From NCBI RefSeq assembly GCF_001580995.1, contig NZ_LHZU01000137.1, positions 1-64,000 of the forward strand: a stretch of 64,000 nt of DNA, read 5' to 3'. Positions 2,864 to 64,000 of this stretch are shown here, piece after piece. The position numbers and the translations under genes are program-made. The stretch's first letter is position 1, and each line of letters opens with the position of its first letter. The notes beneath the pieces were generated by a model. The model made no database searches. It was not told the DNA's origin and worked only from the letters and a program-made list of their open reading frames with translations. Source of the stretch: Acetobacter senegalensis. Lineage in GTDB: Bacteria; Pseudomonadota; Alphaproteobacteria; Acetobacterales; Acetobacteraceae.

Positions 2864-4125
2864 GCTGCAAGCTTCTCCGCAATGGTGTTCAGGGGCAGCA
2901 CATGGCTGACCGGGCCAAGGGCGGCCAAGGTGGGCTGCTGGGTAAAGATACGGCCAGCCACGCGGCAGATATCAGCCGGGGTTACGGCTTCAACCCGTGC
3001 AACGGTTTCCGCAACCGGGATGATACGGCCAAAAAGCTGAAGCTGGCGTGCAATCTGCTCACACCGGCTGCCTGTGCTTTCCAGAGACATCAGCAGGGAG
3101 GCTTTCAACTGCGCCCGTGCCCGGAGCAATTCATCCTGCCCGACCGAAAGCTGGACCTTGCGGAGTTCTTCCAAGGTTACAGGCACCAACTCGGCACATT
3201 GTTTTTCACCCGTGCCCGCGTAAATGCCGAACAGGCCGCCATCAATGAAAGGGGCACTGAAGGAATAGACGGAATAAACCAGCCCACGTTTTTCCCGGAT
3301 TTCCTGAAACAGGCGGGAGGACATGCCGCCGCCCAGAACCATGGAAAGTAGCAGCGTGGCGTAATAATCCGGGTCATTATACCCTACGGACGGGAAGCCC
3401 AGAACCACATGGGCCTGATCCAGATCCTTTTCCTGACGGAATTCGCCTCCACCATAAAGCGAGGGTGGGGTTGGGATCTGTGATGTCAGCGGCAGGTCTG
3501 CAAAATGGCGCTGCACGCGTTCTACAACGTCTTCATGGTGCAGGTTGCCAGCAGCCGCCACCACCATGTTTTCAGCCGTATAATGTGTGCGCATGTAGGA
3601 CATGAGCGTATCACGGCTCATGGACTGGATCAGATCTTCCGTACCCAGCGTGGGGCGCCCCATGGGCTGGTCAGGGAAGGCTGTAGCCTGAAAATGGTCA
3701 AACACCACATCATCCGGCGTATCATTTGCCTGACCGATTTCCTGAAGGATCACGCCGCGTTCCCGCTCGATCTCGGTCGGATCAAAGGTGGAGTGGGTAA
3801 GGATATCACCAATGATATCAACACCCAGATCCATGTTTTCCTTCAGCAGCTTGACGTAGAAGGCTGTCTGTTCCCGCGCGGTGTAGGCGTTGATATGGCC
3901 GCCCACATTTTCAATTTCTTCCGCAATCTGCAGGGCGGAGCGGCTTGTGGTGCCTTTGAACGCCATGTGTTCCAGAAAGTGGGACACACCATTTTCTTCC
4001 GCCGTTTCATCGCGCGTGCCGGTGGACACATACGCCCCGAATGAAACGGTTTCCACCCGTTCCATTCGTTCAGTTACAATGGTCAGGCCGGAGGGCAGAC
4101 GGGTCAGATTGATCGGGTCAGTCAT
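2860..4125 (-). CDS. M16 family zinc peptidase (mitochondrial processing peptidase beta-like)
   Basis: A 421-residue protein with the inverted zinc motif HFLEH at residues 49-53 and a third ligand Glu at 129, exactly 76 residues on, as in the HxxEH-x76-E pattern of the M16B family. The rest matches the two-lobed processing-peptidase fold, including a Gly-rich GGGMSSRLFQEIREKRGL loop typical of the beta subunit. Start ATG at 4125 has AGGA five bases upstream. It lies 51 bases after thrC, an arrangement common in Alphaproteobacteria, and is coupled to pmbA. The substrate is unknown. Confidence 0.9.
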   Translation of the reverse strand: MTDPINLTRLPSGLTIVTERMERVETVSFGAYVSTGTRDETAEENGVSHFLEHMAFKGTTSRSALQIAEEIENVGGHINAYTAREQTAFYVKLLKENMDLGVDIIGDILTHSTFDPTEIERERGVILQEIGQANDTPDDVVFDHFQATAFPDQPMGRPTLGTEDLIQSMSRDTLMSYMRTHYTAENMVVAAAGNLHHEDVVERVQRHFADLPLTSQIPTPPSLYGGGEFRQEKDLDQAHVVLGFPSVGYNDPDYYATLLLSMVLGGGMSSRLFQEIREKRGLVYSVYSFSAPFIDGGLFGIYAGTGEKQCAELVPVTLEELRKVQLSVGQDELLRARAQLKASLLMSLESTGSRCEQIARQLQLFGRIIPVAETVARVEAVTPADICRVAGRIFTQQPTLAALGPVSHVLPLNTIAEKLAA

Positions 4126-51481: not shown

Positions 51482-51609
51482 CGTCCCAAGTAATCACGTG
51501 AAAGTGGCCGTGGCAGGCTGCCTGTAGCCATGGTTGTTCGCCACGCTTGGGGGTAGGTTGTCTGCATGATGTTTGGTTTACGCGACCTTTCTCGTGCAGG
51601 AGCCCCCCG

Positions 51610-51975
51610 ATGCAATCTGTCCTTGGTGATTACGCGCCAGTTCTTATATTCGGTGCCCTCTCCGTGGTCATTGCCGCTGCGATGCTGGGTATGGCGCTGA
51701 TAAGTGGACACCAGAAGCCTTATCCTGAAAAAACAACAGCATATGAATGTGGTTTTGAGGCATTTGATGATGCCCGCCGCCGCTTTGATGTGCGGTTTTA
51801 TCTGGTGGCTATCCTCTTCATTATTTTCGATCTTGAAGTCGCATTCCTGTTCCCGTGGGCAGTCAGTCTCTCCCGCATAGGGTTGTTCGGCTTTCTTTCC
51901 ATGCTGGGGTTCCTGAGCGTGCTGGGGATCGGTTTTCTGTATGAGTGGCGCAAAGGCGCGCTGGACTGGGATTAA
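51610..51975 (+). CDS. nuoA: NADH-quinone oxidoreductase subunit A
   Basis: 121 residues with three membrane helices (about 10-30, 60-80 and 90-112). The conserved loop [32 protein letters not shown], with its Cys and acidic residues, marks NuoA near the quinone site. ATG 51610 gives the family N-terminus, and AGGAG lies six to eleven bases upstream. First gene of the complex I operon; it ends 13 bases before nuoB. Confidence 0.95.
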
Positions 51976-51988
51976 GGGGAAAGCGCCT

Positions 51989-52552
51989 ATGTCTACGAAT
52001 TCACAAGAAGATGCTGTTCTCTGGAACAGAGAGGCTCTGCCGCCGGGGCCGGAGCAGGATGCCGTTGTGCGCGGTATTACAGGCGCCATTGCCGAGAAAG
52101 GCTTTGTGGTCGCCAATCTGGACAAGTTGGTGAACTGGGGACGCACAGGGAGTCTATGGCCCATGTCTTTCGGCTTGGCATGCTGCGCCGTGGAAATGAT
52201 CCATGCGTACATGCCCCGATACGATCTGGACCGTATGGGGATTATTCCCCGCGGTTCTCCGCGTCAGTCTGATGTCATGATTGTTGCAGGCACGCTGACC
52301 AACAAGATGGCCCCTGTGCTGCGCCGTTTGTATGAGCAGATGGCAGAACCCCGCTGGGTTATCTCCATGGGCTCCTGCGCCAATGGTGGGGGGTATTACC
52401 ACTATTCCTATTCCGTGGTGCGCGGCTGCGACCGCATTGTGCCGGTTGATGTGTACGTGCCCGGCTGTCCGCCCACTGCAGAAGCGTTGATTTACGGCAT
52501 CATGCTTTTGCAGAAGAAAATTCGCCGCACGGGGACCATTCTTCGTGGCTGA
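51989..52552 (+). CDS. nuoB: NADH-quinone oxidoreductase subunit B
   Basis: 187 residues. NuoB carries the terminal 4Fe-4S cluster N2, with tandem Cys in GLACCAVEM and further ligands in [11 protein letters not shown] and [14 protein letters not shown] 51989 is placed nine bases after AAGGGGA. It passes electrons to quinone at the interface with NuoD. It overlaps nuoC by eight bases. Confidence 0.96.
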
Positions 52553-53207
52553 GCTTCCTGTTAATCCACAGCAGAACCGTCTGCAGGGGCAAGTGGGCTC
52601 CATGGCGTTTACGCTTGCCACGTCTCTGCCTGGCATTCATTCGGCCGCGGTTGAAAAGGGCGAACTGGTGGTGCGTACGGTGCGTGACCAGCTTCTCCCC
52701 CTCATGACGTTGCTTCGTGATGATCCTCGGTATCGTTTTGAACAATTGATGGATCTGTGCGGTGTTGATTTCCCGGGAAGGGAAGAGCGGTTTGAGGTCG
52801 TCTATAACCTTCTTTCCGTCTCCCATAACCACCGCATCCGCGTGATTGTCACAACAGATGAGACAACGCCGGTTCCGTCCGTGCATCACCTCTGGCCGTG
52901 CGCCACGTGGTGGGAACGTGAATGCTATGATCTGTTTGGCGTTCTCTTTTCCGGACAGCCGGATTTGCGCCGGATTTTGACTGACATCGGTTTTGAAGGC
53001 TTCCCGTTGCGCAAGGATTTCCCCCTGACGGGTTACGAAGAAGTCCGATACGATGTTGAGCTGCGCAAGGTTGTAAAAGAACCTGTTTCCCTGACACAGG
53101 ATTTTCGGGATTTTGATTTTGTTTCTCCGTGGGAAGGGATGTTGACCTTGCCTGGAGACGAAAAGGCGCATGAAGTCAGGCAAGGTATCAAGAGGTCCCG
53201 CGGATGA
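52545..53207 (+). CDS. nuoC: NADH-quinone oxidoreductase subunit C
   Basis: 220 residues, the 30-kDa peripheral subunit. The signature [21 protein letters not shown]-like stretch and the basic [19 protein letters not shown] are clear. It starts at a GTG overlapping nuoB and ends in an ATGA overlap with nuoD, so it is separate from nuoD, unlike the fused E. coli form. Confidence 0.95.
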
Positions 53208-54487
53208 CCGACATGAAACAGCCCCGTGCCGTGGATGTTGAAGAAACATTCCTGAAAAACGATATTCCTGAAAGCCTTTTGCCTGAACAGAAGCTTCAGG
53301 AAACTGAGCGGCGAACGGTTGAAATTGATTCCCATGCCCTGAATTTCGGGCCTCAGCATCCATCAGCTCATGGTGTGTTGCGTCTTGTGCTGGAAATGGA
53401 AGGCGAGGTTGTGGCGCGGGCCGTGCCACATATCGGCCTTTTACATCGTGGCACGGAAAAGCTGATAGAATACAAAACCTATCATAAAGCGCTGCCGTAT
53501 TTTGACCGGCTGGATTATGTTTCTCCCATGTGTGAGGAGCAGGCGTTTGCACTGGCCACGGAAAAGCTTCTGGGCATAGACATTCCCGAACGGGCTAAAT
53601 GGCTGCGGGTTATGTTTGCGGAAATTACCCGTATTTTAAATCATATCCTCAATATTACCGCCATGGGGTTGGACTGCGGAGCGGTAACGCCCGCATTGTG
53701 GGGATATGAGGAACGGGAAAAACTGTTGGAATTTTATGAAGCAGCGTCTGGCGCGCGGTTTCATGCCAACTATTTTCGCCCTGGCGGTGTGGCGCGCGAT
53801 ATTCCAGCTGAATTGGAAGATCGGATTGGCGCGTGGGCCAAGGAATTTCCGGCGTGGATTGATGATCTTGAAGGTCTGCTGACGGAAAACCGTATCTGGA
53901 AACAGCGTACGGTTGGCATTGGCATTTTCACAACCGAGCAGGCTCTGGCATGGGGGTTCAGTGGCCCGTGCCTTCGGGCTTCCGGTGTGCCGTGGGATCT
54001 TCGGCGCAGTCAGCCGTATGACAATTACCACAAAGTTGACTTCAAGGTGCCTGTTACCCGGCAGGGCGACTGTTATGATCGGTATCTCGTACGCATGGAA
54101 GAAATGCGCGAGAGTGTGAAGATTATCGAACAGTGCCTGGCGCAGATTCAGCCCGGAGATGTGAAAGTGCAGGACCCAAAGTTTACGCCGCCACGGCGTG
54201 CAGACATGAAGCGGTCCATGGAAGCACTGATCCATCACTTCAAGCTGTTCAGTGAAGGGTATCATGTGCCGCCGGGAGCCACTTATACAGCCGTTGAAAG
54301 TCCGAAGGGTGAATTTGGCGTGTATCTTGTGGCAGACGGCAGCAACCGCCCGTATCGCTGCAAAATACGGCCTACGGGTTTTTCCCATTTGCAGGCCATA
54401 GATGAACTGTCACGCCGGGCTATGCTGGCAGATATGGTGGCGGTCATTGGCTCTCTTGATCTTGTGTTTGGGGAGGTGGACCGTTGA
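53204..54487 (+). CDS. nuoD: NADH-quinone oxidoreductase subunit D
   Basis: 427 residues, the 49-kDa subunit that forms the quinone pocket. [14 protein letters not shown] holds the conserved His, and [12 protein letters not shown] and the C-terminal DLVFGEVDR are canonical. About 25 residues before the core are an extension. Start ATG overlaps nuoC. Confidence 0.96.
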
Positions 54488-55125
54488 ACACCCCATGGAA
54501 ACCGGCAGAGCAGCCGGACAAATTTTCATTTGATGCAGCATCTGAAGCGGAAATCGCAAAAGTGCTCGTCAAATATCCGGAAGCGCGTAAGGCCAGTGCC
54601 GTCATGCCCATGCTTTATATTGCCCAGCGGCAGATGGGGCGGGAAACGGGGAGTGCATGGGTGCCTGTTGCCGCCATGGATGAAATTGCGCGGCGGTTGG
54701 ACATGGCGCCCATCCGTGTGTACGAGGTCGCATCCTTTTATACCATGTTCAACACGCGCCCGATCGGGCGGTATCATCTTCAGGTTTGCACGACGACATC
54801 CTGCTGGCTTCGCGGTTCAGATGATGTTGTGCATGCCTGCAAAAAAGCAGCCGGCGTCGGTGGCTTTGGTGAGACAAGCGAAGATGGTCTGTTCACCTTG
54901 ACACAGGTTGAATGTCTGGGAGCATGCGCCAACGCTCCCATTCTGCAGGTGGATGATGATTTTTATGAAGATATGGATGGTCCACGCACGGAAGCCCTGA
55001 TTGCAGCGCTCCGTGCAGGAGAAAGACCTCCGGCAGGACCGACCGTAAACCGGTGCGGGTCCGCCCCCGAAGGGGGACGCAAGACCCTGCTTGTAACGCC
55101 GGAAGCGGCGTCTGAAAACCAATAG
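54484..55125 (+). CDS. nuoE: NADH-quinone oxidoreductase subunit E
   Basis: 213 residues, 24-kDa subunit carrying 2Fe-2S cluster N1a. Ligands are in [11 protein letters not shown] and [11 protein letters not shown]. The C-terminal 40 residues are a Pro/Gly-rich extension. The start is a TTG at 54484 that overlaps the nuoD stop (TTGA), so initiation is probably coupled and inefficient. Confidence 0.94.
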
Positions 55126-55136
55126 GAGAGACGGCC

Positions 55137-56465
55137 ATGTTGCAGGACAAAGACCGGATCTTCACCAATCTTTATGGTCAGGATGATTGGAAGCTGGAGG
55201 GAGCCCGCAAGCGCGGAGACTGGGATAATACGGCAGCGATCCTCGCCAAGGGGCGGGATGGTGTTGTGGCGGAAATGAAAGCGTCCGGTCTGCGCGGGCG
55301 CGGTGGGGCAGGCTTCCCCACCGGGCTGAAATGGTCCTTCATGCCCAAGCAGTCAGATGGTCGGCCACATTATCTGGTGATTAACGGCGATGAATCCGAA
55401 CCGGGCACATGCAAGGACCGCGAAGTCATGCGGCATGAGCCGCATAAGCTGATTGAAAGTGCGCTGATCGCTTCGTTCGCCATGGGGGCCCATGCTGCTT
55501 ATATCTACATTCGCGGCGAGTTCTTTCGTGAAGCCGAACATCTCCAGTATGCAGTCGATGAAGCTTACGCGGCCGGGTTGCTTGGAAAAAATGCAGCCGG
55601 GACCGGATGGGATTTTGATTTCTACATTCATCGTGGCGCAGGGGCTTATATCTGCGGGGAAGAAACAGCCCTGCTGGAAAGCCTGGAAGGCAAAAAAGGC
55701 CAGCCGCGTATGAAACCGCCTTTCCCTGCCGGGGTAGGGTTGTATGGCTGCCCGACCACGGTGAACAACGTGGAAAGCATTTCAGTTGCCTCTACGATCA
55801 TGCGGCGTGGGGCAAGCTGGTTTGCCGGGCTTGGGCGGCCCAATAATGCGGGTAGCAAACTCATGGCAATTTCCGGTCATGTGAATACGCCCTGTGTGTT
55901 TGAAGAAGAACTTGGCGTTCCGCTGAAGGACATTATCGAAAAGCATGGCGGTGGCGTACGGGGCGGCTGGGATAACCTGCTGGCCGTTATTCCTGGTGGC
56001 TGCTCCGTTCCGGTCCTGCCGAAATCCATCTGCGAAACAGTGTTGATGGATTATGACAGTTTACGCGCTGAGCGCTCTGGTTTGGGGACAGCGTGCATGA
56101 TTGTCATGGATAAATCGACAGACATTATTGAGGCCATTGCCCGCTTCTCCCGCTTTTTCAAACATGAAAGCTGCGGACAGTGCACACCGTGCCGCGAAGG
56201 TACCGGGTGGATGATGCGCATGATGGACCGGATGGTGCAGGGGCGTGCCGAGCTTGAAGAAATTGATCTGCTTGAACAGGTCACGCGGCAGGTTGAAGGG
56301 CACACCATCTGCGCGCTGGGTGATGCGGCGGCATGGCCTATTCAAGGGTTGATCCGTCATTTCCGCCCTGAAATGGAAGCCCGTATTCGTCAGTACAAAG
56401 CCGCACTTGGCGGAACCGGTCTGGTGCAGGTGCCCGCGCACGGCGTGCCAGTGGCAGCGGAGTAA
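55137..56465 (+). CDS. nuoF: NADH-quinone oxidoreductase subunit F
   Basis: 442 residues, 51-kDa subunit binding NADH and FMN. The flavin/NADH motif [18 protein letters not shown] is near residues 57-74. The N3 4Fe-4S ligands are in [12 protein letters not shown] and the later [13 protein letters not shown]. Standard length. It is 11 bases after nuoE. Confidence 0.97.
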
Positions 56466-56470
56466 AAGCC

Positions 56471-58552
56471 ATGGTGAGGGTTATTGTTGATGGAACGCCG
56501 GTTGATGTTGCTCCCGGTTCTTCCGCTCTTCAGGCGTGTGAAGCCGCAGGGAAGGAAATTCCCCGCTTCTGCTATCATGAACGCCTTTCCGTAGCAGGTA
56601 ACTGCCGTATGTGCCTGGTGCAGGTTGTACGTGCGCCAAAGCCAGTTGCATCCTGTGGTTTTCCGGTTTCGGAAGGCATGGAAATTCTGACGGATACGGA
56701 TGTGGTGCGCCGCGCCCGTCGGGCCGTAATGGAATTCCTGCTGATCAATCATCCGCTTGATTGCCCGATCTGTGATCAGGGTGGTGAATGTGATTTGCAG
56801 GACCAAGCTTATGGTTACGGCACCGGTATCTCCCGCTACCATGAAGACAAGCGTGCGGTAACGGACAAGAACCTCGGTCCGTTGGTGAAAACGGTAATGA
56901 CGCGCTGCATTCAATGCACACGGTGCGTTCGTTTCACAACGGAAGTGGCGGGCACTCCTGAACTTGGCATGGTGTCACGCGGTGAAAACGCGGAAATTAC
57001 CACTTATGTGGAAAAGGCCCTGACATCCGAGCTTTCAGGCAATCTGATTGATATCTGTCCTGTTGGTGCGCTGACAGCCAAACCCACGGCGTTTCATGCA
57101 CGGTCCTGGGAATACAAAAAGACGGACAGCATTGATGTGCTGGATGCGCTGGGTACCAACATTCAGGTTCAGGCGCGCGGCGGCGAAGTGATGCGCATCG
57201 TGCCCCGTGTGAATGATGAAGTGAATGAAGAATGGCTGTCAGACAAAGCCCGTTTTTCAGTTGATGGCCTGAAGCGCCGGCGGCTTGATAAGCCGTGGGT
57301 GCGAGTGCATGGCAAACTTCATGCAGCCTCATGGCAGGATGCTTTTGTCTCTCTGGCTCGCAGGCTGGATGGTGTGTCTGGAGACAGGATTGGCGCGGTA
57401 GCGGGTGATCTGTGTGACGCAGAAAGCCTGTGCGCTTTAAAAGATCTTATGTCTGCACTGGGGTCATCCAACATAGACTGCCGTCAGGATGGGGCCTGGT
57501 ATGATACCAGTGCCCGTGAAGGCTATCTGTTCAATAGTGATATTGTCGGAATTGACGAGGCAGACGCGCTCCTGATTGTGGGCTCAGTGCCCCGTCATGA
57601 AGCGCCTGTGTTGAACGCCCGTATCCGCAAGCGGTTTCTGCGGGCAGGGCGGGGCGGCTTCCCGATTGCGATGATCGGCGCATCCTCCGCTGACCCCACT
57701 TATGATGTCACGTTCCTTGGGGACGGGCCGGATGTTCTGACTTCTCTGCTTGATGGTAGCATTCCTTTTGCAGAAACACTGAAGTCAGCAAAGCGCCCCA
57801 TGATCATTCTGGGGCATGGCGCGCTGACGCGGCGGGATGCTCAGGCGGTTTATGAAGCCTGTCGCACCTTGGCCGAACAGAGCGGTGCTATTGCAGATGG
57901 ATGGAACGGGTTCAACATTCTGCACACCGCGGCTTCTCGAGTAGGGGCGCTTGATCTTGGTTTCCTGCCGGGGCCACGTGGTCTGGCCGCAGCCAATATG
58001 CTGCGGGGCGGGGTGGATGTTCTCTGGCTGATGGGCGCCGACGAATTCCCGATCGATAAAATCGCTCCCGAGACATTTGTGGTCTATCAGGGGCACCACG
58101 GAGACGCTGCCGCCGCCCGTGCTGACATTATCCTGCCGGGAGCGGCTTATACCGAAAAACCGGGCACGTATGTCAATATGGCAGGGCGTGTTCAACGGGC
58201 GTTCCGCGCTGTGTTCCCTCCGGGTGATGCGCGGGAAGACTGGCGTATTCTTCGGGCCTTTTCAGAAGTGGTCGGGCACACATTGCCGTATGACACACTG
58301 GAGGCTTTGCGCGCCAGAATGGTGGAGGTGAACCCCGTGTTTGCGTCCATTGGTTCTGTGGCGACACCACAGGCCCGCCTTCCGGCACAGGCCGAGGGGA
58401 CTGCACAAAAAACAATAGCCGAGTTCAGTGCTGGTGCGTTCCGTCCGGCTATTGATGATTATTACCAGACAAACCCCATAAGCCGGGCTAGCCCGACCAT
58501 GGCGGAATGTTCGCGCATTTACGCACCAGTGCGCGCAGTGGCGGCGGAGTAA
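56471..58552 (+). CDS. nuoG: NADH-quinone oxidoreductase subunit G
   Basis: 693 residues, 75-kDa subunit. Ligands: 2Fe-2S in CYHERLSVAGNCRMC (about 35-50), N5 His-Cys region HPLDCPICDQGGECDLQ (about 95-111), and N4 in CIQCTRCVRF with ICPVGALT. The rest is an inactive molybdopterin-oxidoreductase-like domain. Shorter than the 900-residue E. coli protein and typical of Alphaproteobacteria. Confidence 0.97.
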   Translation: MVRVIVDGTPVDVAPGSSALQACEAAGKEIPRFCYHERLSVAGNCRMCLVQVVRAPKPVASCGFPVSEGMEILTDTDVVRRARRAVMEFLLINHPLDCPICDQGGECDLQDQAYGYGTGISRYHEDKRAVTDKNLGPLVKTVMTRCIQCTRCVRFTTEVAGTPELGMVSRGENAEITTYVEKALTSELSGNLIDICPVGALTAKPTAFHARSWEYKKTDSIDVLDALGTNIQVQARGGEVMRIVPRVNDEVNEEWLSDKARFSVDGLKRRRLDKPWVRVHGKLHAASWQDAFVSLARRLDGVSGDRIGAVAGDLCDAESLCALKDLMSALGSSNIDCRQDGAWYDTSAREGYLFNSDIVGIDEADALLIVGSVPRHEAPVLNARIRKRFLRAGRGGFPIAMIGASSADPTYDVTFLGDGPDVLTSLLDGSIPFAETLKSAKRPMIILGHGALTRRDAQAVYEACRTLAEQSGAIADGWNGFNILHTAASRVGALDLGFLPGPRGLAAANMLRGGVDVLWLMGADEFPIDKIAPETFVVYQGHHGDAAAARADIILPGAAYTEKPGTYVNMAGRVQRAFRAVFPPGDAREDWRILRAFSEVVGHTLPYDTLEALRARMVEVNPVFASIGSVATPQARLPAQAEGTAQKTIAEFSAGAFRPAIDDYYQTNPISRASPTMAECSRIYAPVRAVAAE

Positions 58553-58558
58553 GGGCTG

Positions 58559-59587
58559 ATGGCGCAGTTTTTTTATCATACGCTGATAGGCCAGATTATT
58601 CTGATGGTTCTGGAAACGCTGGCCGTTCTGGTTCCGCTGCTGATTGGTGTAGCGTACCTCACATTGATGGAACGCAAGGTGATGGCCGCAATGCAGATGC
58701 GGCGCGGCCCGAACGTGAATGGTCTTTTTGGGCTGCTTCAGGCTTTTGCTGATGCCATCAAGATGATTTTCAAGGAAACGGTTATTCCCGCAGGGGCCAA
58801 TAGGGCACTGTTTCTGTTTGCTCCGTTTCTAACATTCTCTCTGGCCATGCTGGCATGGGCGGTTATTCCCACGGGGAATGGTCTGGCCGTTGCGAATATC
58901 AATGTTGGTATTCTGTATCTGCTGGCTATTTCTTCATTGGGTGTTTACGGTATGCTCATTGCCGGGTGGGCGTCCAATTCAAAATACGCCTTTCTCGGTG
59001 GTCTGCGGTCCGCAGCGCAGATGGTCTCCTACGAAGTGTCGATCGGGCTTGTCATCGTCTCTGTTCTGTTGGCGGTGGGCAGCCTGAACCTGAACGACAT
59101 TGTGCTGGCGCAACGGCATGTGTGGTTCTGCCTGCCCATGTTCCCGATGTTCATCGTGTTTTTTATCTCGGCGCTGGCGGAAACCAACCGGGCACCATTT
59201 GATCTTCCTGAAGGGGAAAGTGAACTGGTAGCCGGGTTCTTTGTTGAATATTCCTCGCTGGCATTTGGTCTCTTCTTCCTTGGCGAATATGCCAACATGA
59301 TCCTGATGTCGGCCATGGTCAGCATTCTTTTTCTTGGCGGCTGGATGCCTCCGCTGGGTATTGCGCCGTTCACATGGGTACCTGGCCCCCTGTGGCTGAT
59401 TTGCAAAATCCTGTTCTGCCTGTTCGTGTTTATCTGGGTGCGGGCCACATTCCCCCGTTATCGGTATGACCAGCTTATGCGGTTGGGTTGGAAGATTTTC
59501 CTACCGTTCTCCCTACTGTGGATGATTGGAACCGCAGGCTTCCTTATGGCTACGGGCCTGCTGCCTCAGGCTGGAGGTGTAAACTGA
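58559..59587 (+). CDS. nuoH: NADH-quinone oxidoreductase subunit H
   Basis: 342 residues with eight or more membrane helices. It forms the quinone-entry channel with NuoB and Nuo[16 protein letters not shown] and [20 protein letters not shown], with conserved acidic residues, are the family hallmarks. Its stop overlaps the nuoI start by one base. Confidence 0.96.
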
Positions 59588-60075
59588 TGAGTACTCTTGG
59601 AAAAACCTTCCGGTCCTTTCTGTTGGCCGAACTGGCGGCAGGCATGGCGTCCACTTTCAAGATGATGTTCAAGCCGAAAGTCACGCTGAACTATCCTTAT
59701 GAAAAAGGGCCGCTGTCTCCGCGTTTTCGCGGTGAGCATGCATTGCGCCGTTATCCCAATGGGGAAGAACGCTGCATTGCCTGCAAGCTGTGCGAAGCCA
59801 CATGCCCCGCTGAAGCCATTACAATTGAGGCTGAAGAACGGGACGATGGTTCCCGCCGCACCACACGCTATGACATTGACATGACCAAATGCATCTATTG
59901 CGGTCTGTGCGAGGAAGCGTGCCCGGTTGACGCCATTGTTGAAGGCCCGAACTACGAATTTGCAACCGAAACGCGTGAAGAGCTGATGTACAACAAGGAC
60001 AAGCTGCTCGCGAATGGAGACCGTTGGGAGGCTCTGCTGGCCCGACGGTTGGAACTTGATGCGCCTTATCGCTGA
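59587..60075 (+). CDS. nuoI: NADH-quinone oxidoreductase subunit I
   Basis: 162 residues, a ferredoxin-like subunit with clusters N6a and N6b. The two motifs are [12 protein letters not shown] and [24 protein letters not shown] 59587 overlaps the nuoH stop. An open frame to 59488 in the same phase lies within nuoH and is rejected. Confidence 0.96.
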
Positions 60076-60111
60076 GATGATGCAGGCCATGTCCTGGCAG
60101 GAGGTAAGCTG

Positions 60112-60825
60112 ATGATACCGCAGCTTGTATTTTACGTTTTTGCGACGGTGCTGCTTGTATCCGCCACAATGGTTATTACGGCGCGCAACCCGGTGCATTC
60201 GGTGCTGTTTCTCATTCTCGCGTTTTTCAATGCGGCGGGCCTGTTTCTGGTGGCCGGGGCCGAATTCCTGGCGATGCTGCTGGTGATTGTCTATGTGGGC
60301 GCGGTCGCTGTTCTGTTCCTGTTTGTGGTCATGATGCTGGATATTGATTTCACGCAGATGCGGGAAGGCTTTCAGCGTCATGCCCCGATCGGCGCGTGCG
60401 TGGGCGGCATCTTGTTTGTTGAGCTCATCATGGCGCTGGGGAACTGGAAAATGGCCCCCGATACGGGCATCGCCCCGCTGAGCGGCGCACCGGGCCTGAC
60501 GAACACAGCCGCCTTGGGCACGTTGATTTACACCCATTATGTTCTGCTGTTCCAATCCTGCGGTCTTGTGCTGCTGGTGGCCATGATCGGGGCCATTGTG
60601 CTCACACTGCGCCAGACCAATACAGGCCGCCGTCAGGACATCAGCAAACAGCATGCACGCACACGTGAAGACACGCTGGTGCTTGTAGATCTGCCACTTG
60701 GCGAAAATGTGTTGGGTAACGGTGGTTTCCTCCGTCCCCACACATCCTATTACGAAAATGCAGTCCCCGGATCATACGGATCAGGAGGGCAGGCGGAGGC
60801 AGACAAAAGGGAGACCGGCGCATGA
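60112..60825 (+). CDS. nuoJ: NADH-quinone oxidoreductase subunit J
   Basis: 237 residues with five helices. [28 protein letters not shown] carries the conserved helix with the pi bulge. The C-terminus (about 165-237) is a polar extension. Overlaps nuoK by four bases (ATGA). Confidence 0.94.
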
Positions 60826-61145
60826 CGCCCGCAATCGCCCCCATTGGGCTTGGCCCTTATCTGATTGTCAGCGCAGCATTGCTGGTGCTGGGTGTGTTTG
60901 GCATTTTCCTGAACCGGAAAAACGTCATCATCATCCTGATGTCCATGGAATTGATCCTGCTGTCTGCAAACCTCAATTTTGTTGCGTTTTCTTCCGCCCA
61001 TGCAGATCTTTCTGGGCAGATCATGGTGCTGTTTGTGCTGACCATTGCAGCAGCAGAAGCAGCAATTGGTCTGGCTATTGTCACGGTCTATTTCCGCAAC
61101 CGTGGATCCATCCAGGTTGAAGACGTTACGATGATGAAGGGATGA
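60822..61145 (+). CDS. nuoK: NADH-quinone oxidoreductase subunit K
   Basis: 107 residues, three helices. [20 protein letters not shown] and [19 protein letters not shown] contain the conserved membrane glutamates of this antiporter-like subunit. It overlaps both neighbours by four bases. Confidence 0.96.
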
Positions 61146-63094
61146 GCGGACTCATGCAGACCGATCTTCACCTGTTTGCCACGGCTATCCTCCTGCCTTT
61201 GGCAGGGGCGGTTGTTGCGGGGCTGGGTGGTCGCCTTTTGGGCGATGCCATGGCCAAGATTATAACCATTGGCTGCATGGGCGTTGCAGCGCTGTGTGGT
61301 GTTGGTGCTCTTTATGGCGGCTGGTCCGCCGGTTTTGCGCTGCAGACTGTGCCATTGGCCGATTGGGTGAACGCAGGCGGTTTTCACGCCACCTGGACCC
61401 TACGGTTTGATACGCTTTCTGTGACCATGACGGCCATGGTGCTGTGTGTGTCTCTGCTGGTGCATTGTTACAGCCTTGGCTACATGAGCCACGAAACCAT
61501 GCCGACTTATCGGTTTTTTTCGTATCTCTCACTGTTTACCTTCGCCATGCTCATGCTGGTGTCCTCGAATGATCTCATCCAGTTGTTCTTCGGGTGGGAA
61601 GGGGTTGGTCTGGCCAGCTATCTGCTGATTGGCTACTGGTATGATCGGCCTTCCGCCACAGCAGCGGCGATCAAAGCATTTGTGGTCAACCGCGTGGCTG
61701 ACCTGTTCTTCCTCGTCGGGATCGGGCTGGTGTATGTTCTGTTTCATACCGTTCAGTATGATCAGATTTTTGCAACGGTTCCTCAGGTTCTTGGTGCGTC
61801 CTATTCCCTGTTTGGCACCACGTTCAACATGATGGAAGTGATCTGCTTCCTGCTGTTTGTGGGGGCCATGGGCAAATCCGCCCAGCTTTTCCTCCATACG
61901 TGGTTGCCGGACGCCATGGAGGGGCCAACGCCAGTTTCTGCCCTTATTCATGCAGCAACAATGGTCACGGCTGGCGTGTTCCTGATGGCGCGTATGTCTC
62001 CCTTGCTGGAGTTCGCACCCGGCACGCGGATGTTTGTGATCTTTATTGGGGCCACCACCTGTTTCTTTGCCGCTACGGTCGGCATGGTGCAGCCAGATAT
62101 CAAACGCACCATCGCGTATTCCACCTGTTCACAGCTTGGCTACATGTTTGCGGCTGTGGGCGTGGGGGCGTATCAGGCATCTGTTTTCCATCTGACCACG
62201 CATGCCTTTTTCAAAGCACTTCTGTTTCTTGGCGCAGGCTCTGTCATTCACGCTGTGCATGATGAGCAGAACATGTTCCGTATGGGCGGTTTGTGGAAAA
62301 AACTGCCGCTGACATACGCTGTTATGTGGATTGGTAGCCTTGCGCTGGCCGGTGTGTTTCCGTTCGCGGGATATTGGTCCAAGGATGCCATTCTGAACGC
62401 CTTGTGGGCCAGTGGCAGCAGCATGAGCCATTATGCCTGGACACTTGGCACCATTACGGCGTTCATCACGGCCTTTTATAGCTGGCGCCTGCTGTTTCTT
62501 GTGTTCCATGGCGCACCGGCAGACGAGCATGTGCGTGATGCCGCGCATGAAAGCCCTGCGGTTATGACCATACCTCTGGTGCTGTTGGCTATTGGTGCCG
62601 TGGTGGCAGGCGTTGCTCTGGCACCGTATTATATCGGCGCAAAGCAGGATCTGTTCTGGAACGGGGCCATTTTCAACGCGCCGGGCAACAGCATTATGGA
62701 AACATTTGAGCATGTTCCCGCGCTGATCGGCCTGTTGCCTTCCATTGCCGGGCTGGCAGGGATTGCTCTGGCGTATGTGTTCTATGTGGCGTCTCCCGCA
62801 TTGCCTGCCTCCATGGCGCGGTCTTTTGGTCCGGTTTATCGCTTTCTGCTCAACAAATGGTATTTTGACGAACTCTACACAGTTATTTTTGTCCGTCCCT
62901 ATGCCGCCATTGCGCGCGTGCTGTGGAAAGAGGGGGATGAAGGCGCTGTGGAAGGGCTGCCACGTGATCTGGTGCGTGCAACCGTTACGGGCGCATCGGA
63001 GGCCGTCAAACTCCAGACCGGCTCCATTGCCATTTATGCCTTCACCATGCTGGCGGGCCTTGTGGTGCTGCTGACCGTCGCCCTGTGCGGATGA
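61142..63094 (+). CDS. nuoL: NADH-quinone oxidoreductase subunit L
   Basis: 650 residues, the distal proton-pumping subunit. [16 protein letters not shown] and [24 protein letters not shown] are family-typical, with the conserved Lys/Glu/His. The C-terminal region [18 protein letters not shown] and the closing helix ([10 protein letters not shown] onwards) are intact, so the gene is complete. Confidence 0.96.
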
Positions 63095-63101
63095 GGGGTG
63101 G

Positions 63102-63158
63102 ATGATGTCGTTTTTTTTCCTTTTTGATATCTGTAGTGAACGGAGTGCAGTGCGATGA
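63102..63158 (+). pseudogene. Minimal reading frame at the nuoM position, possible deletion remnant
   Basis: An 18-codon frame, MMSFFFLFDICSERSAVR, begins at ATG 63102 just behind GAGGGG and ends with a TGA that overlaps the nuoN ATG as ATGA. Start site, hydrophobic opening and coupled stop are what the two ends of a nuoM gene would leave after an in-frame internal deletion. The peptide is too short to prove homology. It could also be chance sequence in an operon that lost nuoM long ago. Confidence 0.35.
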
Positions 63159-64000
63159 GTGCGACCTCGGTCAACTGGGCGCTGGCTCTGCCGGAAATCA
63201 CACTTGCACTTTCCGGCTTGATCATTCTGGTTGTGGGCGTGTTGCAGCGACGGGGGGAAGGGTTCTTTCCTTGCTCCATGCTGACGGTTGCCGCCTTTGT
63301 GGGGTGTGGGTTTCTGGTGGCCCTTTCGCCCGACGGCGCGGGTTATGCCGGTACCTTTGTGAATGACAGCTTTGCACGCTTCATGAAAATTCTGGCACTG
63401 GTGGGTGGCCTTCTGGCAACTATTGTCACCGTAGGGTACCGTGGTGAGGACCGGCATGATCCGGGAGCGTTACCGTTTGAAACGCCTATCCTCATGCTGT
63501 TTTCAACCCTCGGTGCCATGATCATGGCATCCTCCGCCAATCTCATGACCCTGTTTGTCGGATTGGAACTATCTTCTCTCTCCATCTACATTCTCTGTGC
63601 TCTGGAGCGGGACCGGGTTACGTCTTCTGAAGCCGGATTGAAATATTTTGTTCTGGGCTCCCTGGCTTCCGGGCTGCTGCTGTATGGCATGTCTCTGGTC
63701 TATGGTTACGCAGGCACCATGGAATATACGGGGCTGATTGCCGCCATCCATGCGTCAGGAACACTGCCACCAGGGTTGATTGTTGGCATTGTGTTCGTGG
63801 TGGTGGGGCTGTGTTTCAAGCTTTCCGCCGTTCCCTTCCATATGTGGACGCCTGATGTCTATCAGGGGGCACCAACGCCGGTAACAGCCTATATGGCGGG
63901 TGCGCCCAAATTTGCCGCCTTCGCTCTGTTTCTGCGTGTCATGGTCGGGCCGTTCGGTGCGGTTGCGCCTCGCTGGCAGATCCTGATTGAAACCGCTTCC
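63155..64000 (+). CDS. nuoN: NADH-quinone oxidoreductase subunit N (partial, cut by window end)
   Basis: At least 282 residues, cut at the right edge with no stop. It belongs to NuoN, not NuoM: the N-terminus LALPEITLALSGLIILVVGV, LFVGLELSSLSIYILCALERD and KLSAVPFHMWTPDVYQGAPTPVTAYMAG are NuoN signatures. CGGAG nine bases upstream and the ATGA overlap set the start. Antiporter-like membrane subunit. Confidence 0.94.
   Translation, partial: MSATSVNWALALPEITLALSGLIILVVGVLQRRGEGFFPCSMLTVAAFVGCGFLVALSPDGAGYAGTFVNDSFARFMKILALVGGLLATIVTVGYRGEDRHDPGALPFETPILMLFSTLGAMIMASSANLMTLFVGLELSSLSIYILCALERDRVTSSEAGLKYFVLGSLASGLLLYGMSLVYGYAGTMEYTGLIAAIHASGTLPPGLIVGIVFVVVGLCFKLSAVPFHMWTPDVYQGAPTPVTAYMAGAPKFAAFALFLRVMVGPFGAVAPRWQILIETAS

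Follow-up and report, generated by a model that had tools for sequence, protein, structure and literature searches.

The nuoM gene of Acetobacter senegalensis lies apart from its complex I operon: a probable takeover by a spare copy and a candidate bridging frame between nuoL and nuoN

The window, a stretch of 64,000 nucleotides of the Acetobacter senegalensis genome (contig NZ_LHZU01000137.1), contains a complex I operon on the forward strand. The open reading frame list and Pfam matches identified nuoA (51547-51975), nuoB (51941-52552), nuoC (52545-53207), nuoD (53204-54487), nuoE (54484-55125), nuoF (55137-56465), nuoG (56471-58552), nuoH (58559-59587), nuoI (59488-60075), nuoJ (60112-60825) and nuoK (60822-61145). 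These coordinates (51547..61145) are those of the longest frames, and some of the true starts may lie later. The next gene, nuoL (61142..63094, stop codon 63092-63094), encodes 650 residues and scored 784.6 bits against NF005141, which has a cut-off of 556, and 779.8 bits against TIGR01974. The nuoN gene, for which the top NCBIfam matches were NuoN models, starts with the ATG at 63155 and runs past the end of the window (63155..64000). The window holds 282 of its codons, and the contig continues beyond 64000, where nuoN is complete at 483 residues. The order of the genes, assigned by Pfam for nuoA to nuoK and by NCBIfam for nuoL and nuoN, is standard up to nuoL, which is followed directly by nuoN. 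The genes downstream of nuoN, named from their translations, are birA-, coaX- and rnj-like, both here and at locus L118.

The nuoL-nuoN junction consists of 60 bases on the forward strand (63095..63154). Judged by the sequence and by the L-M-N order in intact relatives, it corresponds to the slot that holds nuoM in related genomes outside the split clade, in which nuoL and nuoN are adjacent and nuoM lies elsewhere. There was no NuoM-like frame in the gap, PF00361 matched only nuoL and nuoN on this contig, and an Rfam search of 62000-64000 gave no match. The operon has the same subunits in the same order as the canonical alphaproteobacterial nuoA-N operon, but nuoM is missing from its place between nuoL and nuoN, where a complete operon would have it, and would be supplied from elsewhere. 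The sequence, Pfam and NCBIfam all bear out the absence of nuoM between these two genes that the initial annotation had reported. Its description of the interval was also accurate by translation: an 18-codon frame (63102..63158, forward strand), encoding MMSFFFLFDICSERSAVR followed by a stop codon, opens with a pair of ATG codons at 63102 and 63105, and its TGA (63156-63158) overlaps the ATG of nuoN in the motif ATGA. Counterparts of this mini-ORF were present in 47 of 47 Acetobacter junctions.

An operon without nuoM could mean that NuoM has been lost and that a crippled complex I is tolerated thanks to NDH-2, as the initial annotation proposed. However, a search of the whole genome for a nuoM homologue, the check that it had put forward, located a full-length gene on another contig. 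PF00361 matched six places in the assembly, a draft of 148 contigs: nuoL and nuoN of the operon, three genes in a row on contig C72, and a lone gene on contig C84. The lone nuoM (G000:C84:8642-10159, reverse strand) encodes 505 residues and scored 550.1 bits against TIGR01972, above the cut-off of 263.8 bits; its score of 573.6 against the narrower equivalog NF004499 was 11 bits below the cut-off of 585. The best match among solved structures, 8qby_M (4.2e-128), is a subunit M chain of complex I. Glu144, Lys223, Lys254, His311, His337 and Glu396 (E144, K223, K254, H311, H337, E396), which we take to be the ionisable pump positions of NuoM, were conserved in 18 of 18 lone NuoM sequences. On these sequence features, the lone gene almost certainly supplies the NuoM subunit of complex I in this organism, and a cell lacking NuoM is highly improbable. 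The order of the nuo genes is reportedly, according to the title of one paper cited in PMC12361115, not essential for the assembly of E. coli complex I.

The available portions of two studies of A. pasteurianus bear on the same question. In the passage of PMC5158111 concerned with strain SKU1108, the nuoA-nuoN operon has 13 locus numbers and nuoM lies elsewhere, the same arrangement in the same genus, although that passage does not deal with other genera, with the origin of the gene or with the junction. The protein ratios given in PMC10742644 were 0.62, 0.33, 2.16 and 1.78 for NuoM (gene 1610) and 0.93, 0.31, 2.22 and 2.12 for NuoN (gene 3354), while the NuoB-NuoI rows (genes 3342-3350) changed in the sequence down, down, up, up. 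These values indicate that the distant NuoM is made and that it varies together with other subunits of the complex, which argues against the loss of NuoM.

The three adjacent PF00361 matches on contig C72 (L009) belong to a second complex I operon, with nuoL, nuoM and nuoN beside K, J, I, H and G genes. Assignment of the lone NuoM to a second complex I was rejected because the C72 operon encodes a NuoL, NuoM and NuoN of its own. It represents another complex I lineage, and its NuoM differs from the lone NuoM. Two kinds of nuo operon have been described in acetic acid bacteria, in a tree of six genes that did not include nuoM, where the Granulibacter bethesdensis operon grouped with those of Acetobacter and Komagataeibacter (PMC4596401, in part); we infer that the C72 operon is the second of these types. 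The nuoA-nuoN genes described for Gluconacetobacter diazotrophicus, with nuoCD and nuoM (PMC9368920, in part), presumably also form an operon of the second type. A literature search for Granulibacter with nuoM found nothing.

The genes upstream of the lone nuoM on the same strand, named from their translations, are ileS-, lspA-, DUF3035- and mutL-like, and 126 bases separate the end of mutL from nuoM. The identity of mutL was confirmed by TIGR00585 in other genomes only. No sigma-70-type promoter was found near the mutL-nuoM gap, and the one terminator-like site in the region (0.4 expected) was located inside nuoM.

The arrangement is widespread in the family. TIGR01972 gave a match in 140 of 150 Acetobacteraceae genomes, this one included, and 48 of the 150 were followed with NuoL and NuoN. 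In 18 of the 48, again including this genome, nuoL and nuoN were adjacent and nuoM was elsewhere; 19 had the order L-M-N, 10 had only the second operon type and one (G007) had no NuoL match. The gaps at the 18 split junctions were 61 bases or less. In a further check, nuoL and nuoN were adjacent at 26 of 28 junctions, and the remaining two (G171 and G214) were L-M-N. A search of 397 genomes with the lone NuoM of G100, a member of a sister genus, scored three candidates per genome. In the 11 genera that include split genomes, 63 genomes gave a match, one in each, the adjacency of nuoL and nuoN having been checked in part of the 63; 54 genomes gave no match.

The address of the lone gene is mostly conserved. 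In 16 of the 18 split genomes mutL lies upstream of nuoM on the same contig and strand, directly so in 14; a long reverse-strand frame intervenes in G071 and about 7 kb in G056. In G132, mutL and nuoM are on different contigs, and in G117 nuoM follows mlaA/mlaC-like genes with mutL on another contig. The mutL gene precedes nuoM in Acetobacter okinawensis, A. lovaniensis, A. cerevisiae, A. malorum, A. thailandicus and A. peroxydans as well as in Gluconacetobacter and Komagataeibacter species, with about 2 kb between the two in Ga. azotocaptans. The mlaA/mlaC-like address was found in A. nitrogenifigens, A. sp. UBA5411 and A. estunensis. Four loci of one Acetobacter group (L013, L102, L103 and L105) have the lone nuoM after these genes, and it seems that the gene has moved again there. 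The comparison with relatives, in which the same short junction accompanies a nuoM at another, mostly conserved locus, speaks against the loss that the initial annotation had envisaged.

That annotation had also allowed for an assembly error, and in a draft of 148 contigs about 1.5 kb might have been dropped at the junction. However, the same kind of junction occurs in 46 other Acetobacter genomes and in 15 split genomes outside the genus, with the single-contig assemblies G427 and G013 among the examples. An artefact was rejected on these grounds and has next to no chance of being the explanation.

Two Acetobacter genomes showed a different state. In G448, nuoN (contig C214) is apparently broken into two frames, and nuoM lies on another contig. 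In A. malorum DsW_057 (L101; G416, with its match in the same place as in G438), the lone nuoM was the single PF00361 match, and this genome-wide search revealed no nuo operon; either the operon was lost, leaving an orphan nuoM, or a contig is missing.

The lone gene could have reached its present position by simple relocation, in which the operon's own nuoM was excised and inserted again behind mutL, without an intervening two-copy stage. The single NuoM match of lone type in each of the 63 listed genomes of 11 split genera and the mostly conserved address are what relocation would leave. However, all three listed genomes of one sister genus (G100, G171 and G214) combine an L-M-N operon with a lone nuoM at a different address. 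In both NuoM trees the G100 lone NuoM was sister to the 18 lone NuoM sequences (100/100), whereas its operonic NuoM grouped among the canonical NuoM. Forcing the G100 operonic NuoM into the lone clade was rejected with a p-AU of 2.7e-5, using a NuoM tree without G150, and with a p-AU of 2.5e-8 in a test with the split rows but without the lone copy. The G100 lone copy also matched the lone clade at five of six diagnostic residues, the sixth, position 227, being different; the diagnostic positions are not all clean, since there is variation at 174, 227 and 249 within one or other of the compared groups. These trees and tests were run on selected sequences: G029, G116 and the second-complex rows were left out as too divergent from the later NuoM tree, the NuoM tests and the NuoL+N trees, and the lone copies of G102 and G011 from the second NuoM tree and both constraint tests for the same reason.

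The RpoB tree placed G100 next to the clade of split genomes with moderate support (SH-aLRT 89, without bootstrap). This clade also contains G008 and G022, whose sole nuo operon is of the second type, along with G029 and G116, which have a divergent intact operon. The separation of G100 from the split clade was also seen with NuoL+N, though weakly (p-AU 0.045), and may mean that the operon was regained in G100. Since the sister genus has both copies and its lone copy is sister to the split clade, the operonic nuoM was probably lost after the spare copy had taken on its role. As judged from these sequence comparisons, a takeover by an extra copy is the probable course of events, and a move of the original gene is unlikely.

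The takeover raises the further question of where the extra copy came from. The lone clade was sister to the operonic NuoM of an Acidiphilium-like group (98/98 in the first NuoM tree, 99/97 in the second), as would be expected had the extra nuoM been transferred from an Acidiphilium-like lineage rather than arisen by an ancestral duplication. However, the lone clade sits on a long stem (0.52 in the second NuoM tree), so that its placement may reflect long-branch attraction, and the NuoL+N of the split genomes lean weakly toward the same group (86/80 in one tree, the second giving no resolution), as long-branch attraction would cause in both. Transfer is a possibility, within the takeover account, that we hold tentatively.

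Elsewhere in the family, G102 and G011 (L081 and L082) likewise have a lone nuoM in addition to an intact operon. These copies grouped together and with the operonic NuoM of G102 on long branches, and it seems that a spare nuoM arose more than once. Two small genomes that lie inside the acetic acid bacteria by RpoB (G029 and G116; L056 and L057) have an L-M-N operon that is intact but highly divergent and may be foreign in origin.

The junction frame was analysed across the genus. NuoN was obtained from 47 of 49 Acetobacter genomes, the other two being G448, with the broken nuoN, and G438, with the lone nuoM only. The criterion, set after the junctions had been seen, was an ATG frame of at least 10 codons reaching the start of nuoN. 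Such a frame was present at all 47 junctions and in each case had at least 13 codons (range 13-47), compared with 16.8 expected from dinucleotide shuffles and a maximum of 25 in 1000 shuffles. The stop of the frame and the start of nuoN overlapped by 4 or 1 bases in the window and in 44 of the 47 junctions, the frame ending exactly at +1 or +4 relative to the nuoN ATG (ATGA or TGATG/TAATG), where 13.5 were expected and the maximum in 1000 shuffles was 22; the exceptions were A. thailandicus, G432 and G454. Because junctions of related genomes do not count as independent observations, they were grouped at 0.80 similarity into 23 clusters. With one junction per cluster, the frame was found in 23 of 23 (8.3 expected) and the +1/+4 contact in 20 of 23 (6.7 expected). 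In thirteen Acetobacter genomes, the frame begins within the nuoL stop (ATGA) and finishes within the nuoN start (ATGA). The Acetobacter gaps are 37-148 nt long; those in 15 split genomes outside Acetobacter are about 34 nt or less.

Coupled frames were present in 4 of 56 control sequences from three gaps of the mutL region (0/24, 4/13 and 0/19), each gap being 30-300 nt long and taken from up to 24 loci. All four were in the DUF3035-mutL gap (4/13), so such frames are not peculiar to the nuoL-nuoN junction.

The initial annotation read the frame as the scar of an in-frame deletion of nuoM. It was right that a real frame, conserved in the genus, occupies the slot. That its 18 codons are the in-frame ends of nuoM is a conjecture, since the window peptide resembled canonical NuoM starts no better than its own shuffles did (p 0.80). 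Some of the other frames are reminiscent of the canonical start MNAAGFPLLS, as in the A. cerevisiae record (G347), with MTHAVFPVFS (p 0.0005). Summing over 26 of the 47 peptides likewise gave p 0.0005, a value obtained with related rows and a weak null, because shuffling mixes in the charged tail. The proposal that the mini-ORF is a domesticated relic of the operonic nuoM, which kept the contacts with its neighbours while its inside disappeared, and which now acts as a sequence-free relay coupling NuoL and NuoN synthesis with NuoM coming from a paralogue elsewhere, is doubtful.

The frame might instead encode a functional small peptide. It is open at 47 of 47 junctions, many of the peptides have a hydrophobic start, and in four 72-base junctions the differences at codon positions 1, 2 and 3 numbered 16, 3 and 14, a bias that may reflect selection on the peptide in this group. 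However, the peptide sequences differ widely. The differences showed no codon-position bias in 8 of the 11 genomes whose gap is 46 bases (165/188/164) or in eight 18-codon frames (133/116/133), and the RSA tail common to many of the peptides is encoded by the apparent nuoN ribosome-binding site. A functional peptide is accordingly a rather improbable alternative to bridging. The frame is kept while the peptide drifts in most groups, and its likeliest role is that of a translational bridge, a candidate function that we favour by a little.

Termination-reinitiation at -4 and -1 overlaps is known from other gene pairs (available parts of PMC10666635 and PMC6728339), and the ATGA or TGATG/TAATG contact with nuoN is of the same kind. 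In the former source, at a distance of 38 nt, reinitiation fell by 80-90% for two E. coli gene pairs and ceased altogether for a third. The upstream frame here differs from those pairs in being a filler of 13-47 codons and not a gene for a subunit of the complex. In the axe-txe system (PMC8708949, in part), a minigene likewise affects the translation of the next gene, txe, in cis; it has two codons, belongs to another system and was tested experimentally, whereas the Acetobacter frame is known from its sequence. The accessible text of PMC5318159 contains nothing on such junction frames.

We propose that complex I is complete in this organism and would be encoded in two places, a 13-gene operon (nuoA-L and nuoN) and the lone nuoM after mutL. 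An ancestor common to the sister genus and the acetic acid bacteria would have had, in addition to the operon, an extra and already diverged nuoM. The operonic nuoM would then have been lost in the acetic acid bacteria, the extra copy now providing NuoM, with the order of these events deduced from the trees. In Acetobacter, the emptied slot retains the frame of 13-47 codons, which would bridge nuoL and nuoN, so that ribosomes finishing nuoL could pass to nuoN by termination-reinitiation despite a gap of 37-148 bases; both the translation of the frame and the coupling are predictions. The lone gene, its conservation, its positions in the trees and the retained frame are read directly from the sequences, and we consider it likely that the account as a whole, a split complex I, takeover by a spare copy and a bridging frame, is correct. 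A separate nuoM has already been published for one genome. Neither the two-copy state of nuoM, with the history that it suggests, nor the genus-wide junction frame was found in the literature searched, and the part of PMC12361115 consulted holds nothing on the nuoM split.

These results correct what would have been a false call of complex I loss in acetic acid bacteria. They also provide a case in which a spare copy would have replaced the gene for a central subunit of a large complex, with a sister genus still in the two-copy state. The Acetobacter junctions may, moreover, serve as a natural test in many species of whether short frames that otherwise have no meaning are kept solely to hand ribosomes on between successive subunit genes.
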